Of a DNA stretch of 10,619 bases, positions 2,049-10,619 are shown piece after piece. The stretch comes from Deltaproteobacteria bacterium (lineage in GTDB: Bacteria > Desulfobacterota > Binatia > UBA9968), in assembly GCA_005878685.1 (NCBI GenBank), contig VBLN01000301.1, positions 1-10,619 of the forward strand, written 5' to 3'. Position 1 is the first letter of the stretch, and each line of letters begins with the position of its first letter. Below the pieces are notes generated by a model, which saw only the letters and a list, made by a program, of their open reading frames with translations, was not told the origin of the DNA and did not search any database. Made by a program: the position numbers and the translations under genes.

Positions 2049-3290
2049 TTGCGCCGGGAAGAATTACGCGTTCTCCTAGTCGTTTGCCTCGGAACCTTTT
2101 TCCACATTCAGAGTGTCGGCAGCATCAGCGTATCGCTCTCGGCGATCCAAAAAGAATTTGACACCACGTTGGCGGCCGTCCAATGGATCGGCTTGATGGG
2201 AGCGATCATGCTCTCCAGCCTCTCGCTTGGCTTTGGCCGGGCGGGCGACCTCGTCGGACGAAAGGCGATTTTCAAAATAGGACTCACTCTGTACGCGGCG
2301 GGCGCGGGTCTAGCGGCGGTCTCCGGAACGTTTCCGCAATTGCTCGCGTTCCGCTGCCTCATGGCGCTCGGCTTGGCCATGGCAGCACCTCTGGCCGGGG
2401 CTATCATCGCCTCCGTCCACAGCCATGAGAGCAGAGGACGGGCTCTGGGTTTGTTGGCTGCCTCCATCGCGTTGGGCAGGACGACTGGACCGACGATCGG
2501 CGGGCTCATTCTTCAACTTTGGGGATGGAGAGCGGTGTTTATTGCCAATTGCCTTTTTGGGATGGCGACCTGTCTGACTTTGTTTTTGATCCTTAAAGGC
2601 AAGGAAGAACGCCGTAAAGTTTCGTTTGATTATTTGGGTGCCTTTTCCTTGGTCGTCGGCTTTCCTTCAGTTCTCATCGCGCTGACTCTCGGGACGCGCG
2701 CGGGCTGGGATGCCCCGGAGATTATGCTCTGGCTTAGCTTGGCTGCGGCGGGCATCATCGGTTTCGTATGGCGAGAGTTGCATGCGGAAACGCCCCTGAT
2801 GAACCTCCTCTATTTCAGGAGTATTCCCCTTGTAAGAGCCATGTTGTCGTTGGTGCTTGCGACGCTGGCGTTCTACCCGGTCTCTATCTTCGGCCCTCTT
2901 TACCTGCTCAACGTCATTCGGGTTTCCCCGCTTTCGGCCGGCCTCGCCATGGCGACACTTCCTCTCTGCACCACGTTGCTCTCGCCGTTAAGCGGCAGGC
3001 TGGCGGATCGGTTAAATCCCCGGTGGGTGGCGATACTCGGTCTGTGCATCATTCTTTTGGGCGTGTTCTTCTATGCGAAACTCGGCGAGGGCTCGAGTCT
3101 CGTTTGGATCGTTACCGTTCTCTCTATTTTGGGGGCTGGCATCGGCCTCTTCGTCCCCGCAAATGAAAAGGCCGCCTTTTCCACGGTTCCGAGCCGAGAT
3201 TACGGAATGCTTTCCGCCATACTGACCGCGTTTGGCACGGGTTCCGGCGCGTTAGGCACGACTGTAGCGGTAGCGCCGGATGAGCGGTGA
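2049..3290 (+). CDS. DHA2-type major facilitator superfamily transporter, C-terminus lost by frameshift
   Basis: A 413-residue polytopic membrane protein of the drug:H+ antiporter-2 (EmrB/QacA-like) type. Motif A appears as GRAGDLVGRKAIF (63-75) after TM2. Motif C appears as the GPTIGG run (147-152), followed by LWGWRAVFIAN (157-167). A second motif-A-like loop, SGRLADRLNPRW (315-326), lies in the C-terminal half, with around a dozen or more hydrophobic helices in all. Family members export drugs or metabolites by proton antiport. The chosen start is TTG 2049; an in-frame TAG at 2007-2009 excludes much earlier starts, and the ribosome site is weak. The frame ends at an unexpected TGA (3288-3290) just inside what should be the loop before the last helix. 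The missing helix is encoded in the next frame (see 3274-3390). It diverges from the VOC/receptor operon and precedes an amidohydrolase, so it may export a related compound. The substrate is unknown. Confidence 0.85.
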   Translation: MRREELRVLLVVCLGTFFHIQSVGSISVSLSAIQKEFDTTLAAVQWIGLMGAIMLSSLSLGFGRAGDLVGRKAIFKIGLTLYAAGAGLAAVSGTFPQLLAFRCLMALGLAMAAPLAGAIIASVHSHESRGRALGLLAASIALGRTTGPTIGGLILQLWGWRAVFIANCLFGMATCLTLFLILKGKEERRKVSFDYLGAFSLVVGFPSVLIALTLGTRAGWDAPEIMLWLSLAAAGIIGFVWRELHAETPLMNLLYFRSIPLVRAMLSLVLATLAFYPVSIFGPLYLLNVIRVSPLSAGLAMATLPLCTTLLSPLSGRLADRLNPRWVAILGLCIILLGVFFYAKLGEGSSLVWIVTVLSILGAGIGLFVPANEKAAFSTVPSRDYGMLSAILTAFGTGSGALGTTVAVAPDER

Positions 3291-3390
3291 TGCCGGGGGA
3301 TTCGCGTATGACCAGCAATTTGCCTTCTCTTCACTTCTGCCGCTGGCCGCTCTAGCCGTCGTTGTCGCCATGGTGGGGAAACGCGAGTAA
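3274..3390 (+). pseudogene. Out-of-frame C-terminal helix of the MFS transporter
   Basis: In the frame one base later than the transporter, 3274-3390 encodes 38 residues ending at TAA 3388-3390. They include GGFAYDQQFAFSSLLPL followed by a hydrophobic run AALAVVVAMVG and a basic end KRE. This is what the last transmembrane helix and tail of a DHA2 transporter look like. In this frame a TAG at 3271-3273 blocks upstream reading, and in the transporter's frame a TGA at 3288-3290 blocks downstream reading. The shift must therefore fall within about 3274-3290. That stretch has no homopolymer longer than two bases, so a simple slippage read error is not the obvious cause. A 1-base gain or 2-base loss would explain it. 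Confidence 0.75.
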
Positions 3391-4886: not shown

Positions 4887-5465
4887 GTGAACAAAATAGA
4901 TCTCTCTCGCTTTTCCTTGGAAGGCCGGACCGCCATCATAACCGGCGGTAGTGGTGGCATCGGAAGGGCTTGTGCCTCTGCGTTTGCAAAGGCTGGCGCC
5001 AACGTTGTCATTGCGTCCCTTCCGCCGGATTCGATCCCGCCTGTGGTACAGGAAGTAGAAGCGCTAGGGGTGGAGGGCCTCGGATTGGCGACCGACGTTT
5101 CAAATGCCGAGCAGGTAAAGTCCATGGCGGACCAAACGCTTTCAAAGTTTGGCCGTGTGGATGTCCTGGTCAACGTGGCCGGAGGTTCTTATAGCCGAAA
5201 CCCCTATGTGCCCTCATTCAAACGCGCACCTTTGCTCGACCTGGCTCCGGAAGACTTCATGAGGGTCTATGAAATCAACACCAAGAGCGCTTTTCTCTGT
5301 GCCAAGGCCGTAGTCCCGGCGATGAAGGCTTACGGGAAAGGAAGCATCATCAACATCGGATCGATCTCTGGGCGTGGAACCAAGAAGGAAAGAGCGGACA
5401 TGGCCGCCTATGGTTCTGCCAAGGCTGCCGTGATGAACCTAACCCTTCACATGGCGCACCAGTGA
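4887..5465 (+). CDS. SDR-family NAD(P)-dependent oxidoreductase, cut short by an in-frame TGA
   Basis: A Rossmann-fold short-chain dehydrogenase, 192 residues as far as it can be read. The cofactor motif is TGGSGGIG (19-26), followed by an acidic-helix-cap region ATDVSN, the NVAG variant of NNAG (96-99), Asn131, GSIINIGSISG with the catalytic Ser, and Tyr175-x-x-x-Lys179 in AYGSAKAA. The start is GTG 4887, with AAAGGAG at 4874-4880, 6 bases upstream. A TGA at 5463-5465 then interrupts the protein at the end of helix alpha-F. The same frame continues with recognisable SDR sequence to 5633, so this is a nonsense-interrupted gene, not a natural end. Relatives at this point often have Trp-Gly (TGG GGx), one transition from TGA. 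The remaining part has the active-site residues but lacks the substrate loop and last strand, so activity is unlikely. Confidence 0.85.
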   Translation: MNKIDLSRFSLEGRTAIITGGSGGIGRACASAFAKAGANVVIASLPPDSIPPVVQEVEALGVEGLGLATDVSNAEQVKSMADQTLSKFGRVDVLVNVAGGSYSRNPYVPSFKRAPLLDLAPEDFMRVYEINTKSAFLCAKAVVPAMKAYGKGSIINIGSISGRGTKKERADMAAYGSAKAAVMNLTLHMAHQ

Positions 5466-5633
5466 GAGCCGGAAGTACGGGTCAACTGCATCGCTCCAGG
5501 CATTATCGACAAAAGGATCGCGCTCGGACGGGCCGGCAGGCCCGATGAAGTAGCCAGCGTGGCGCTATTTCTGGCTTCGGACGCATCCGGCTTTGTTAGC
5601 GGAGCCATTATTGACGTAACCGGGGGGGAATGA
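5466..5633 (+). pseudogene. C-terminal remnant of the SDR gene, in frame after the TGA
   Basis: In the same frame as the SDR gene the DNA reads [15 protein letters not shown], then [20 protein letters not shown] and [19 protein letters not shown], ending at TGA 5631-5633. This is the standard SDR C-terminus: the I/V-R-V-N-x-I-x-P-G strand, the GR-x-G-x-P-x-E-V-A helix and the final D-V-x-GG. The 20-odd residues that normally lie between PGII-D and R-x-A/G, the substrate-binding flap, are absent apart from a single Lys. The gene thus shows two lesions, a nonsense codon and a probable in-frame deletion, which favours a real pseudogene over a read error. The whole relic spans 4887-5633, 249 codons including both stops. 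Confidence 0.8.
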
Positions 5634-5822: not shown

Positions 5823-5851
5823 TTGGACTTTTCCTGGCGGCTCAGTATACT
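5823..5851 (+). promoter_or_regulatory. Near-consensus sigma70 promoter of the receiver-cyclase gene
   Basis: TTGGAC (5823-5828), an exactly 17-base spacer and TATACT (5846-5851) match the sigma70 consensus at 5/6 and 5/6. Transcription would start near 5858, about 19 bases before the ATG at 5877, with CGGAGG (5869-5874) as the ribosome site in between. The -35 box contains the TTG at 5823 that could otherwise be taken as an upstream start codon, so the match also argues for the later start. Confidence 0.65.
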
Positions 5852-5876
5852 GCCCGCAGGCAATTATTCGGAGGCC

Positions 5877-7031
5877 ATGACCGATCAAGCGAAAATTCTC
5901 GTCGTTGACGACTCGGCCGATATCGTGGAGATCCTGGCTGATCTCCTGAAAGCCAAGGGTTACGCAGTCTGCACCGCCGGCACCGGCCTGGAGGCCCTTG
6001 CACAAATCGAGCGCGAGCGACCGGACCTCGTGCTCCTCGATGTGATGATGCCGAACATGACGGGCTATGAAGCTTGCAGGAAGATCCGGGAGAATCCCGC
6101 GACGGTGTTCCTGCCGGTGGTCATGCTGACCAGCATGGACGCGAATGTGGAACGGATCAACGGCATCGAAGCCGGCGCCGATGATTTCCTGAGCAAGCCG
6201 CCAAACCCCCCGGAACTACTCGCGCGCGTTCGCTCGCTGATCCGGATCAAACAGCTTCATGACACGGTCCAAGCGCAAATGGGCCAACTTTCAGAATGGA
6301 ACAGAACGCTGGAGACGCGCGTGCAGGAACAGGTCGCGCAGCTCGAGCGGCTTGAGCGGCTGAAACGTTTTTTCTCTCCTCAGCTCGCCGAACTCATCGT
6401 GATGGGTGGCGCCGAGGACCCCCTGAAGAGCCACCGCCGTCAGATTAGCGTCGTCTTCATCGATCTTCGGGGATTCACAACTTTTGCGGAAACCAACGAG
6501 CCGGAAGAGGTCATGGACGTGCTTTGGGAATATCATGCGGAGTTGGGCCCGCTGATCGTGAAGCACGAGGGAACCTTGGAGCGATTCACCGGCGACGGCA
6601 TGATGGTGTTCTTCAACGACCCCGTACTCGTGCCGAATCCGGAAGAGCGGGCCGTCCGCATGGCGGTCGCGATGCGCGACCGTGTCGCTACGCTACAGAC
6701 CAAATGGGCCAACCGCGGCTATACACTGGGTATGGGAGCCGGAATCACCGCTGGGTATGCAACCATCGGCGCGATCGGTTTCGAAGGGCGGCGGGACTAT
6801 GCGGCCATCGGTACGGTCCCGAACTTGGCGGCCCGGCTCTGTGATCAGGCCCGTCCCGGCCAGATCCTGATATCGCAGCGGCTCTACAGCGCCGTTGAGT
6901 CGCTCGTAGAGGCCGAATCGGTCGGAGAGCTGTCCTTCAAGGGAATCCAGCGGCCGCTGCAGACATACAACCTCCTCCGGCTTAGGGCTCTGCCCGGCCA
7001 ATCTTTCTCTTTGAGCTTTCTAGGAAGGTAA
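5877..7031 (+). CDS. Response regulator with C-terminal class III nucleotidyl (probably adenylate) cyclase domain
   Basis: 384 residues, cytoplasmic. Residues 5-~125 form a receiver domain: acidic pair Asp11-Asp12, phospho-acceptor Asp55 in LVLLDVMMP, Thr85, Lys107 in SKPP. Residues ~133-165 look like a coiled-coil linker. Residues ~188-370 form a class III cyclase domain with metal aspartates Asp196 (FIDLRGFT) and Asp240 (RFTGDGMMVFF), Asp308 (GRRDYAAIG), and transition-state Asn316 and Arg320 (NLAAR). Asp308 favours ATP, but the usual substrate-reading Lys before F-x-GD is Arg236. A phosphorelay from an unseen histidine kinase would control cNMP synthesis. The start ATG 5877 has CGGAGG only 2 bases away, closer than usual; the sigma70 promoter at 5823-5851 supports it. 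The final ~11 residues (GQSFSLSFLGR) and the stop are encoded by a duplicated piece of the topoisomerase VI A gene read on the opposite strand. Confidence 0.92.
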   Translation: MTDQAKILVVDDSADIVEILADLLKAKGYAVCTAGTGLEALAQIERERPDLVLLDVMMPNMTGYEACRKIRENPATVFLPVVMLTSMDANVERINGIEAGADDFLSKPPNPPELLARVRSLIRIKQLHDTVQAQMGQLSEWNRTLETRVQEQVAQLERLERLKRFFSPQLAELIVMGGAEDPLKSHRRQISVVFIDLRGFTTFAETNEPEEVMDVLWEYHAELGPLIVKHEGTLERFTGDGMMVFFNDPVLVPNPEERAVRMAVAMRDRVATLQTKWANRGYTLGMGAGITAGYATIGAIGFEGRRDYAAIGTVPNLAARLCDQARPGQILISQRLYSAVESLVEAESVGELSFKGIQRPLQTYNLLRLRALPGQSFSLSFLGR

Positions 7032-7092
7032 CTCTTGGTCATCCTTGTTGGCGAGCGCGTCCAGCTCGTACTTGAGGCCGGTCGAGAGCATG
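6997..7092 (-). pseudogene. Duplicated 3'-end fragment of the topoisomerase VI subunit A gene
   Basis: These 96 bases match 8859-8965 in the same orientation with one 11-base deletion (GGTACTGAAAG of the full copy is missing after 7042) and only about three base differences. On the minus strand it still reads MLSTGLKYELDALANKD, identical to residues 332-348 of subunit A. The deletion shifts the frame, and YLPRKLKEKDW follows in another frame. It is a decayed gene tail with no start of its own. The match ends sharply at 7092/7093. Upstream of 6997 there is only loose similarity. It overlaps the last codons of the cyclase on the other strand. The stretch 7093-7161 shows nothing recognisable. 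Confidence 0.9.
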
Positions 7093-7161
7093 TGTTGGGA
7101 CGCGACAGTTGCGAATCCTCCATCTCTCCACATTCTCACGACCCTCGACAGCGACTGCGCA

Positions 7162-8736
7162 TCATTTCGCGCAGGTCGAGATGGCCGGGATCGGCAGAGG
7201 GTGTCCGTCGAGACCAGGCGGCACAGGAACTCCGACGGCCTCTAAAAGGGTGGGAGCAATATCGTAGATCGTGTGGCCGCTGATGTCCACGCCCGCCGAC
7301 ACTCCGGACCCAATTATCAGCACGAAGCCGTGCGCAGTGTGGCTGCCACTGCGCGCGTCCTGGCGGCGGAGCTGAAGTGTCCCGAATCGTGGTGAGTCAA
7401 CAGCCGTCCAGGGGAACGACTGCTCCCAGAAGACGGTCAGGTCCGGCAACCGGTCGAGGAAGGGCCCCTGAAATTCATCGGGGATGAAAGTCACGCGTCT
7501 GACCACGGGCCGGCCGCTAACCGGATCCCGTAGCTCGTAGAGCGCCTCGGTAATCTCCTGGCAGAGACGGCGGTACTCGGCCCCTGCCTGCACGAGGCCG
7601 GTCTTGTCTCGACCTTTCACATTAATCCGGATCGTTCCCACCACGTCATTATTGGGGATGGCAAAGGCGCGGCATGCTTCCCACCTTAGCCCGCCAGTGT
7701 ACCAGAGCTCCACGAGCCGTTCCTGGAGAGTCTGAGGCAGCATCCCTTTAATGCGGTACTGCAGGGCTCCGGGCATCATCATCTTTAGGAGCCTCCAAGG
7801 ATTCACCCGGGCCTTGCGTTGCCTTCCACTTCGAGCAAACCCATTAGTCCTGCTATCGCCAAAGCCCAACAAGTCCAGAATCTCTTGGAGATTCCAAGAG
7901 GCGTGGTAGAGCGGACCCATGCCCTCCGCGGAGACTACGAAGCACCGCACGTTCCTGTCCACCAAGTCGAGCATCTTCCCGATCTCGTGATCGATCGCCC
8001 GGTAGACCTGCTCGATGGTGTCGGCGAGGCCATACGGATCTTCCTTAGGATGCCGCGGATAGCTGGGATCCATGAACCGCCAAAAGTGGTGCCCAGCGCA
8101 GTGGGGCTCCGAGAAGCCGGCAAGAAAGGTATCCCAGGGGTACTCCTGCATCAATTGACGGAAAACCTCTCCATGGAGACGTACCCCTTTAAGCAGTCGG
8201 CCTCGCAGTTGAGCCAGCAATCGTGGGGCATCATCGACAGCATCACACTCTCCAACCGGGTGCTGGCCGAATCTTGTCTCGATCTCGCCAACTAAAGTCT
8301 CGGGTATCGATGCCAGAGGCGCATGCATCGCATGGGCGCCCCAACAGGCCAACTGAAAACCGTTCAAGGACCGGCTCGCAGCGAACTTGGGGACATCCAC
8401 CACCCCAACCCGCTGGCCCGCCTGGCTCAGCCGCTCCCACACGGGCGGAAGGCCGATGGCATCGTCGCCCAGATGGCGCACTCCCATGGTCTGCGCATCG
8501 TACTGGACATAAAAAAATCGCCCAAACTTCGCTGGGTTCATACCGATGTACAGGCAGGGCCAGACCGTATCGGGCAGTTGCTCAGACGTGCTGGCGAGTT
8601 TCCCACCCATCCCCTGTTCCATGAGCCGACGGAAGACTGGCAGCTTTCCCCCGTTTGCCCACTGACGGACCAAGTTCCACTCCATCGCGTCCGCACAGAT
8701 CACCAACTGCCGAATGTGCTCCGAACCCGCTTTCAT
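7162..8736 (-). CDS. Alkaline-phosphatase-superfamily protein (type I phosphodiesterase/nucleotide pyrophosphatase-like)
   Basis: 524 residues with the PF01663-type layout. QLVICADAMEW carries the first metal Asp16, and LPDTVWPCLYIGMNPAKFG (54-72) holds the candidate nucleophile Thr57 in the usual 'T/S...G.NP.K.G' setting. FSEPHCAGHHFW (208-219) is the D/E...H..W metal region. GSHTAHGFVLIIG (464-476) supplies a later metal His466, and a C-terminal ISGHTIYDIAPTLLEAVGVP matches the 'DI.PT.L...G' ending. The usual S-D-H-G metal pair is replaced by Ser269-Ala-Glu-Gly in VVSAEGMGP, so catalysis may be altered or lost. No signal peptide. Relatives hydrolyse phosphodiester, pyrophosphate or phosphoester bonds; the substrate is not readable. 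The start has GGAGGTGG at 8741-8748. It lies alone between the two copies of the topoisomerase gene tail, convergent with the cyclase. Confidence 0.88.
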   Translation of the reverse strand: MKAGSEHIRQLVICADAMEWNLVRQWANGGKLPVFRRLMEQGMGGKLASTSEQLPDTVWPCLYIGMNPAKFGRFFYVQYDAQTMGVRHLGDDAIGLPPVWERLSQAGQRVGVVDVPKFAASRSLNGFQLACWGAHAMHAPLASIPETLVGEIETRFGQHPVGECDAVDDAPRLLAQLRGRLLKGVRLHGEVFRQLMQEYPWDTFLAGFSEPHCAGHHFWRFMDPSYPRHPKEDPYGLADTIEQVYRAIDHEIGKMLDLVDRNVRCFVVSAEGMGPLYHASWNLQEILDLLGFGDSRTNGFARSGRQRKARVNPWRLLKMMMPGALQYRIKGMLPQTLQERLVELWYTGGLRWEACRAFAIPNNDVVGTIRINVKGRDKTGLVQAGAEYRRLCQEITEALYELRDPVSGRPVVRRVTFIPDEFQGPFLDRLPDLTVFWEQSFPWTAVDSPRFGTLQLRRQDARSGSHTAHGFVLIIGSGVSAGVDISGHTIYDIAPTLLEAVGVPVPPGLDGHPLPIPAISTCAK

Positions 8737-8751
8737 GCCGCCACCTCCGCG

Positions 8752-8779
8752 ATTACAAAACTTTCATTTCACGTGTCAA
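8752..8779 (-). promoter_or_regulatory. Candidate sigma70 promoter of the phosphodiesterase-like gene
   Basis: On the minus strand: TTGACA (plus-strand 8774-8779, perfect), 16-base spacer, TGTAAT (plus-strand 8752-8757, 5/6). This would give the gene its own promoter inside the repeat-bounded block. One difficulty is that the predicted start of transcription (about 8745) falls within the ribosome site at 8741-8748, giving an unusually short leader. Either initiation is slightly upstream or the match is fortuitous. Confidence 0.4.
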
Positions 8780-8850
8780 CTCCACGTATCTTCGTCAAAC
8801 TACGTCCCAGTGAAAGGGCCGTCTCAGTGCTCCGCGGGCCGGGCTGCGGG

Positions 8851-9957
8851 CTAGTCCAGCCAATCTTTCTCTTTGAGCTTTCTGGGAAGGTAGGTCTTGG
8901 TCAGGTACTGAAAGTCCTTGTTGGCGAGCGCGTCCAGCTCGTACTTGAGGCCGGTCGAGAGCATGCCCTTGATTTCATTCTGCCATTCTTTTTTTTGAAA
9001 CCATTTATACTTCATGATTTCTTTTGCTCGGTTGATGTCTTTGTCGTTGAGCTTGATGCCGACGTTGCGCGGGAGCCCGTAGCGGTCCGGATCCGCGCTG
9101 GAGAAGCCGATGAATTTGGCCTTGGGAATGGCCATGCGCTGACTTTCAAAAGCGAGATTGATCGATCCCTGCTTGACGACCGAATAGATGTAGTAGCCCC
9201 AGGGATCATTGTCCACGAGGACATAAACGGGCAGCCCCTTTTCTTCGTGCAGCCTCCGCGCCAGGCGCCTGACACCGCGGGGCGGCTGGCCGTTCCCCGT
9301 AAGCAGGATGCAATTGTATCTCCGCCAGAACTTGTCTTCCGAAAGGCGGTTCCACTGGGTGCCTTTCTCAACCAGGAGAACGAAATCAGCCGTGCATCGA
9401 GTGATCTGAATGTATTCCGGCTCGACGATGGAGGGAACCGAATAACCACCTTTCCCGAGCCTGGTGCAGTCCACCCGGTCGCCGTCATCCACCAACACCA
9501 GCGGTCCCACGACGGTACCCGAGTTCTCGGCGCGCACGTGGAGCTCCTCCCGCAGCGTTTCCAAGCTGACTTCCAGGTCCTCGATCAGCGGGTCGGATTC
9601 GTTCTGGCCGTCGAACGTGTTTTCGTGCGAGTTCTTAATCGTGTGCTTGGTGCGGTAGTAGATCTCCCGGAGAGAGGTCGTGAGATCCGATCGCTGAAGC
9701 TCGGCGAGGGCATCGGCCACGAGTACCGTCTGCATAAACTTCTTCGCCATGCCGACGTTGAAAAACGAGCGCGCCTGCTTCCTTCGGCCCATCTCGATCA
9801 TGCCCCTCTTCTCGTCGAACGTGACGTTCGCGAGGCTGCGTACGGGAATCGAAAGCGTCGGGTCCTTGCTCCGCTGCGCGGCGGTAATGACAACATCGGC
9901 CACGCCGACGAGCTTCTTCTCGACCGCTCCGTTATTTTTTGCCTTTTTTCGCGCCAT
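8851..9957 (-). CDS. top6A: DNA topoisomerase VI subunit A (Spo11-like, bacterial)
   Basis: 368 residues, the catalytic subunit of a type IIB topoisomerase that cuts both DNA strands and passes a duplex through, with the ATPase supplied by subunit B. A lysine-rich N-terminus precedes a winged-helix domain whose TTSLREIYYRTKH (93-105) carries the DNA-linking tyrosine, most likely Tyr101 by comparison with the Spo11 R-D-I-F-Y motif. The Toprim domain has Glu197 (LLVEKGTQ) and Asp249/Asp251 (VLVDNDPWGYYIYSVV), which bind Mg2+. Length is normal for the archaeal/bacterial family. ATG 9957 is preceded by an AGGA about 9 bases away. The gene for the probable B subunit lies upstream in the same direction but 292 bases off, with a nested inverted repeat in between. 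Its last 107 bases are duplicated at 6997-7092. Confidence 0.95.
   Translation of the reverse strand: MARKKAKNNGAVEKKLVGVADVVITAAQRSKDPTLSIPVRSLANVTFDEKRGMIEMGRRKQARSFFNVGMAKKFMQTVLVADALAELQRSDLTTSLREIYYRTKHTIKNSHENTFDGQNESDPLIEDLEVSLETLREELHVRAENSGTVVGPLVLVDDGDRVDCTRLGKGGYSVPSIVEPEYIQITRCTADFVLLVEKGTQWNRLSEDKFWRRYNCILLTGNGQPPRGVRRLARRLHEEKGLPVYVLVDNDPWGYYIYSVVKQGSINLAFESQRMAIPKAKFIGFSSADPDRYGLPRNVGIKLNDKDINRAKEIMKYKWFQKKEWQNEIKGMLSTGLKYELDALANKDFQYLTKTYLPRKLKEKDWLD
8859..8965. repeat. Full-length copy of the ~107-base direct repeat (tail of topoisomerase VI A)
   Basis: This is the partner of 6997-7092. It lies inside the last ~36 codons of subunit A and is 107 bases because it keeps the 11 bases lost from the other copy. 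Both copies have the same orientation and are separated by 1,766 bases (7093-8858) that contain the phosphodiesterase-like gene and its promoter. Confidence 0.9.
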
Positions 9958-10249: not shown

Positions 10250-10619
10250 CTACTTTTTTGTGTTTGTCTTGGCCTTCCGTGAACTCGGAGCTGTTTGTTT
10301 TTTGCTACGGTGCTGCGGCCTGCTCTGCTGCGTAACTTTGACCGCTTTCTTTTTCCCCTTCGTCTTAGCCGTTTCCTTCGGCCGCGCCCGCGCCGCGGAC
10401 TGATCCTCTTCGTCTAGAGCTTCTTCCGGTGGTGCACTGCTCATATCCGGCGCCTCTCCTTCGGTTCCCTCGGGCGTGACTATGATCGAATGGGGCAGAC
10501 CTTCCGGGCCGCCGCCGTCGTGTCCCAGTAACTCATCGGTCTTCTGGCCACCGGTCCGTCTCAGGGCGATCTTCTGCAGCTGGTCTTTGAGTTTTTCTTT
10601 CGGCAGTTTTCCCCCCTTG
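10250..10619 (-). CDS. C-terminal part of probable DNA topoisomerase VI subunit B (runs off the right edge)
   Basis: The minus-strand frame is open from the window edge (first full codon at 10618) to TAG 10250-10252, giving 122 visible residues. It reads KLPKEKLKDQLQKIALRRTG, then GQKTDELLGHDGGGPEGLPH and SIIVTPEGTEGEAPD. An acidic spacer and a tail very rich in Lys, Arg, Ser, Thr and Gln follow (KETAKTKGKKKAVKV; SKKQTAPSSRKAKTNTKK), which is likely disordered and DNA-binding. Assignment rests mainly on position directly upstream of subunit A in the same direction, as in archaeal top6B-top6A operons, and on the fit of the TGGQKTDELLG region to what I recall of bacterial subunit B ends. The diagnostic GHKL ATPase motifs lie outside the window. 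It could also be another nucleoid-type basic protein. An internal ATG at 10444 is not a likely start, since the open frame continues upstream without a break. Confidence 0.6.
   Translation of the reverse strand, partial: KGGKLPKEKLKDQLQKIALRRTGGQKTDELLGHDGGGPEGLPHSIIVTPEGTEGEAPDMSSAPPEEALDEEDQSAARARPKETAKTKGKKKAVKVTQQSRPQHRSKKQTAPSSRKAKTNTKK

Follow-up and report, generated by a model that had tools for sequence, protein, structure and literature searches.

Why does a topoisomerase VI gene have its 3' end repeated on one short piece of bacterial DNA, and what does the second copy record? The window, by which we mean the whole stretch of 10,619 nt that was analysed, comes from a member of an uncultured bacterial family and carries an intact top6A gene together with a second, damaged copy of its end. 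We read this repeat as the scar left when DNA was inserted at the top6A end, duplicating some 100–125 bp, at a site that has been used repeatedly, and we put the probability of that reading at roughly 0.6.

The repeat and the genes that flank it

A repeat search and an alignment of the window confirmed what a preliminary description had claimed, namely that the top6A 3' end recurs in the same orientation about 1.8 kb away. The gene-side copy lies at 8856–8965 (+) and the left copy at 6994–7092 (+, with the top6A sense on the – strand), the latter being 11 bases shorter. A single 11-base gap separates two blocks: 7042–7092 and 8915–8965 are identical over 51 of 51 bases, 6994–7041 and 8856–8903 agree at 44 of 48, and the top6A bases 8904–8914 (+) are missing from the left copy. 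The 11-base deletion had thus been described correctly, while the substitutions number four rather than about three and the left copy begins no later than 6994 rather than at 6997, with similarity possibly reaching leftwards over 13 more columns (10 matching) to 6977 and 8840. The repeat is, as had been stated, far beyond chance: its 51 bases are the longest exact direct repeat in the window, whereas 100 dinucleotide shuffles gave 13 on average and never more than 17. An nhmmer profile built from 15 family top6A genes, the window's own included, detected the left copy at E 5e-23, and the two peptides previously read from it, MLSTGLKYELDALANKD and YLPRKLKEKDW, do sit in two different frames on the top6A strand. 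The left copy is a frameshifted, non-coding relic, as had been proposed, and top6A is intact. The further claim that its high identity implies a recent event has support only in part. Of 99 bases compared without gaps, 95 in the relic agree with its own top6A, 93 with the tail found in genome G019 and 89 with that in G011; since it is barely nearer its own gene than the G019 tail, its age is poorly fixed. Rfam (at gathering scores) and ARAGORN gave no matches in the window.

The intact top6A gene (8851–9957, –) encodes a 368-aa topoisomerase VI subunit A (Pfam TOP6A-Spo11_Toprim, E 9.9e-61; TP6A_N; Topo_VI_alpha) that is 88–96% identical to full-length relatives, and the C-terminal part of top6B lies at 10250–10618 (–), matching top6B residues 544–665 with E 3.1e-31. 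Between the two repeat copies is the segment that we read as inserted DNA (7093–8855). It holds a 524-codon ORF (7162–8736, on the – strand like top6A) for a type I phosphodiesterase of the AlkP superfamily (PF01663, E 4.8e-15). This gene is foreign to the family, its matches in 24 further genomes of the family (E <= 1e-20) reaching 32% identity at most. In a global protein set (E <= 1e-60) it matched 381 clusters, and the 120 of these that were listed, its own cluster aside, showed identities of 54–74%; few of those listed carry names, and the named ones include Nitrospira and Pyrinomonadaceae.

On the other side of the relic, an ORF for a response regulator joined to an adenylate/guanylate cyclase (5823–7031, +; Pfam) runs into the relic, which supplies its final 13 codons (6990–7028). 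Seven of the 12 cyclase relatives that were read end at the residue preceding 6990, the other five continue for 3–12 residues with unrelated ends, and nine family copies have their stop codon within about five codons of the same place. The ORF reads 13 relic codons, so the junction has probably supplied a new end in place of the natural one; loss of the original stop codon there is likely rather than proven, given the five relatives that continue past the relic start. The cyclase ORF (5823–6989) also matches Pycsar cyclase models of PADLOC (best E 1.3e-18). We did not assign it to Pycsar, since this domain occurs widely and a partner gene was not seen, and the match probably reflects the shared cyclase domain.

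Further left is a short-chain dehydrogenase gene (4887–5633, +) with five orthologs at 81–86% identity; it has an in-frame TGA after residue 192 and a frame otherwise open throughout. In three of the five relatives that have it (G010, G020 and G023) the dehydrogenase lies beside top6A, at a distance of 229 bases in G020 and 160 bases in G023, and in none of the three does a cyclase or phosphodiesterase gene stand between the two. From this adjacency the cyclase, the relic and the phosphodiesterase can be read as later arrivals between dehydrogenase and top6A. Two observations count against such a reading: the gap in G010 measures 680 bases and holds a 214-codon ORF, and in G009 and G015, the remaining two of the five, dehydrogenase and top6A are on different contigs. 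The insertion in the window would in any case be deduced from comparison with other genera, no empty site from the same species being known. Elsewhere in the window, there appears to be a frameshift towards the end of an MFS transporter gene (near the 3' end, 3270–3390), the remainder of the C-terminus continuing in another frame.

Extra top6A tails across the family

When 125 bases of the top6A end were searched against 25 family genomes, 20 of the genomes had matches, 30 in all. Seventeen are the gene itself, or a gene running into a contig end; the other 13 are extra tail copies, spread over nine genomes (G000, G001, G005, G006, G008, G011, G012, G013 and G019), of which the one in G006:C358 is cut by the contig start. 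Three further cases come on top of these 13: G005:C122 has a second copy, the copy in G013:C113 is split, and G005:C16 has a block that lacks the tail. A comparison with relatives, suggested in the preliminary description as a way of looking for second copies, thus turned up extra top6A tails in eight other family genomes. That description was right about the duplicated 3' end and the relic, and overlooked that the bracketed gene is foreign to the family and that tails recur family-wide. When the whole protein served as query, isolated top6A fragments were C-terminal only. No tail match was found in 123 other genomes of the class (148 in all, up to five candidates scored per genome), all 20 matching genomes belonging to the family. 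Among 80 named loci, mostly from Nitrospirota and Rokubacteria and in 79 cases with more than 300 bases downstream, no convincing second copy was seen, the search giving three short weak matches. One 29-base tail pattern had no exact match in viral contigs.

Eleven of the 13 extra tails begin within two bases of the stop codon, while the window's copy starts at base 6 and the G008 copy at base 32. Inside top6A the tails extend for 22 to 265 bases before they end, the breakpoints being blurred by decay and by later insertions (G001:C811, G013:C113); the G001 tail is split by about 1.8 kb carrying an amidohydrolase gene. Several tails have about 25–60 further bases in common beyond the stop codon. 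We considered whether this post-stop block is an independent dispersed repeat and found that unsupported: with up to three mismatches it has seven matches in five of the 25 genomes, and five of the seven are at tails.

The relics of G011 and G012 adjoin an aldo-keto reductase gene, and the same reductase is near top6A in G023; the tails of G006 and G013 are near a gene pair that we take to be ODC and HSS, and this pair is near top6A in G003. Relics beside such neighbours may mark former positions of the top6A end. Some tails have small genes of toxin-antitoxin type as neighbours. Tandem tails bracket segments of 0.4–5 kb: DUF4160 and DUF4926 genes in G005:C122, an ORF with sub-threshold helix-turn-helix matches only in G012:C117, an 80-codon ORF without family match in G019:C19, and 5.2 kb with transporter-type genes in G013:C331. 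Single tails have as neighbours DUF6883 with a cut DUF4926 ORF (G012:C44), DUF4926 (G008:C95) and HicA with a DUF1902 partner (G006:C358), a candidate similar partner ORF occurring in G013; in G005:C16, ParE and BrnT genes precede the post-stop block. Two different cassette genes, the DUF4926 gene of G005 and the ORF of G012, enter the same block exactly at their stop codons.

Several of these contigs showed features of their own. In G013:C331 (L027:1-6500) the genes next to the top6A tail encode a GAP1-N1 protein, a pair of double-GTPase proteins and a metallophosphatase that carries a GTPase-associated adaptor domain, together a candidate cluster for conflict or defence; in PADLOC the metallophosphatase best matches PDC-S60 (E 4.6e-19), one GTPase weakly matches GajA (E 3e-4) and the other two proteins match nothing. 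In G005:C16 (L229:3431-3728) the post-stop block is joined to a 94-codon fragment, directly after the ParE gene, that weakly resembles the C-terminus of an ISCR transposase. An ISCR-like vehicle was rejected, the evidence being one 94-codon fragment at one block, with E 6e-4 and 18.4 bits against a cut-off of 925. The contig G019:C19, which has two top6A tails, also carries what looks like a relic, 97 bases long, of an ODC-like gene's 3' end (L031:2094-2190). Finally, residues 1–158 of top6B are matched again at G007:C25:5920-6393, in addition to the full gene.

Two features of the survey count against insertion. Many tails are on contigs without top6A, and in G005, a genome that is 100% complete, tails are present with no match to either top6A or top6B, so that some tails may be remnants of gene loss.

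How the tails may have arisen

The reading that we prefer, insertion at the top6A end, starts from four things seen in the DNA: a gene end present twice, a foreign gene between the copies, a cyclase ORF that continues into the relic, and tails that recur. It would work as follows. A segment with the phosphodiesterase gene would have been added at the convergent top6A 3' end, between the cyclase gene and top6A. About 100–125 bp across that end would have been duplicated, such that top6A stayed whole and a non-coding relic was left next to the cyclase. Successive insertions would push older tails outward like tree rings, here with the dehydrogenase arriving before the cyclase and the cyclase before the phosphodiesterase. 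As to the joining itself, incoming DNA carrying cargo plus a top6A tail may recombine with the resident tail, the second junction being illegitimate. Both this order of events and joining through gene-tail sequence, rather than by one dedicated integrase, are deductions from the arrangement. We favour homology-driven joining because the breakpoints vary and because 18 of the 19 tail-bearing contigs have no tyrosine integrase. The search covered the general tyrosine-integrase family PF00589 in 11 genomes, and in it the only positive tail-bearing contig is G005:C122, where the integrase is about 51 kb from the tails; since contigs are short, missing integrases prove little. A donor chimera was looked for at the G000 gene end, where identities by segment give no clear switch of nearest relative. 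Retro-insertion, with a fixed 3' end and variable truncation, was considered too; against it, the repeats also contain sequence beyond the gene.

The main rival to homology-driven joining is a dedicated site-specific recombinase that uses the top6A 3' end as attB for integrative cassettes; the two copies would be attL and attR, and the element would restore the gene end. Tails that start so regularly at the stop codon, the bases shared after it, the two cassette genes that meet one block at their stop codons and the tandem tails around 0.4–5 kb segments would all suit such an enzyme. They have to be set against gene-side breakpoints spread over 22 to 265 bases, the one distant integrase among 19 contigs, and a second gene, ftsZ, with the same anatomy, by which the site is not unique. 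We regard this rival as improbable, if the most serious of those weighed.

The case of ftsZ came from a control search with eleven other gene ends (one 5' end and ten 3' ends, from several genomes), in which at most 15 candidates were scored per genome, so that satellites are under-counted. Segments of top6B and DTW matched their own genome only and are thus uninformative, and the top6A 5' end, ftsA and HSS had no extra copies in the family genomes. Extra ends were found for ftsZ in G007 and G019, for ODC as the apparent relic in G019, and for one AKR end in G013. In G007:C277 an exact 99-bp direct repeat (L262:3997-4095 and 7221-7319), made of the last 62 bases of ftsZ and 37 beyond, encloses 3.1 kb with an NMT1-type ABC transporter operon, and a facing permease ORF reads into the second ftsZ-end copy, just as the cyclase ORF does in the window. 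This matching anatomy indicates that the process is not confined to top6A, which has the most extras among the gene ends compared, the counts being unequal. The AKR end in G013 was seen twice, on a contig (C74, L265) that looks palindromic, with positions that sum to its length plus one; this is probably an assembly artefact.

Direct pairs were also counted without regard to a chosen gene. Forty stretches from eight family genomes, selected by contig number (628,669 bases), held 12 pairs, one of which (G004:C5) spans the end of an integrase fragment while the other pair labelled as a 3' end looks GC-rich and repetitive; 71 named loci (1,135,696 bases) held six. In G004:C5 (L273:1-167, 1295-1461) the 3' end of the tyrosine-integrase fragment and 117 bases downstream of it have a second copy (96%) lying 1.3 kb upstream, and the two enclose a 197-codon ORF that matches no Pfam family.

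A bolder proposal, which we think doubtful, is that the top6A end and its post-stop block form the recombination site of unrecognised small mobile toxin-antitoxin or defence cassettes, moved by a novel enzyme and arranged in integron-like arrays that stand beside topoisomerase VI or replace it. Also improbable is a purely local history, in which phosphodiesterase and top6A tail were duplicated in tandem and the outer phosphodiesterase was then deleted, stranding a tail beside the cyclase; it accounts for the cyclase end entering the relic and for the direct orientation, requires two events, and leaves both the tails in nine of 25 genomes and the family-foreign phosphodiesterase unexplained. 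That a metagenomic contig was wrongly joined at the repeated 51-base stretch is very unlikely, because four substitutions and 11 bases set the two copies apart, their flanks differ and eight other genomes have extra tails, even with a genome bin of 507 contigs that is 80.6% complete and was judged without reads.

Relation to known systems

On the preferred reading, insertion at the top6A end, other genes have entered repeatedly at this gene end within an uncultured family of bacteria. If each tail relic marks one in a series of insertions, the relics let us trace how a single locus gained its genes, and they would then point to small toxin-antitoxin and metabolic cassettes that may spread without a visible tyrosine integrase. 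Among the literature matches listed, we found no report of top6A as an insertion site; those on gene-end islands do not mention topoisomerase VI, and the one on topoisomerase VI, as far as its listed text goes, concerns its distribution (PMC11302465).

The window can be compared with three kinds of system. Genomic islands insert at the 3' ends of tRNA and protein genes and have direct repeats on both sides. Similarly, the window has foreign cargo by a conserved gene end, the end is repeated directly with one copy completing the gene, the gene is whole and the site is reused. In contrast to integrase-driven islands, the window's contig has no match to PF00589; more generally, the top6A case has no tyrosine integrase close by, breakpoints that vary, though blurred by decay and later insertions, segments of only 0.4–5 kb, and top6A itself as target. 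Integron gene cassettes are small and separated by copies of one sequence. The cassettes of G005 and G012 are likewise small, some of toxin-antitoxin type, and split by same-orientation copies of one sequence; unlike in integrons, the repeated element is the coding end of top6A itself, the PF00589 search of these short contigs showed no tyrosine integrase beside the tails, and four tail sites folded on both strands gave no strong attC-like hairpin (z -2.2 to +1.0, 200 mononucleotide shuffles each). The third is homology-facilitated illegitimate recombination, which PMC3240628 describes for DNA uptake and conjugation in cultured species, whereas the genome here is uncultured. The likeness lies in the products: a homologous junction combined with an illegitimate one would leave the gene complete, the relic truncated and the breakpoints variable.
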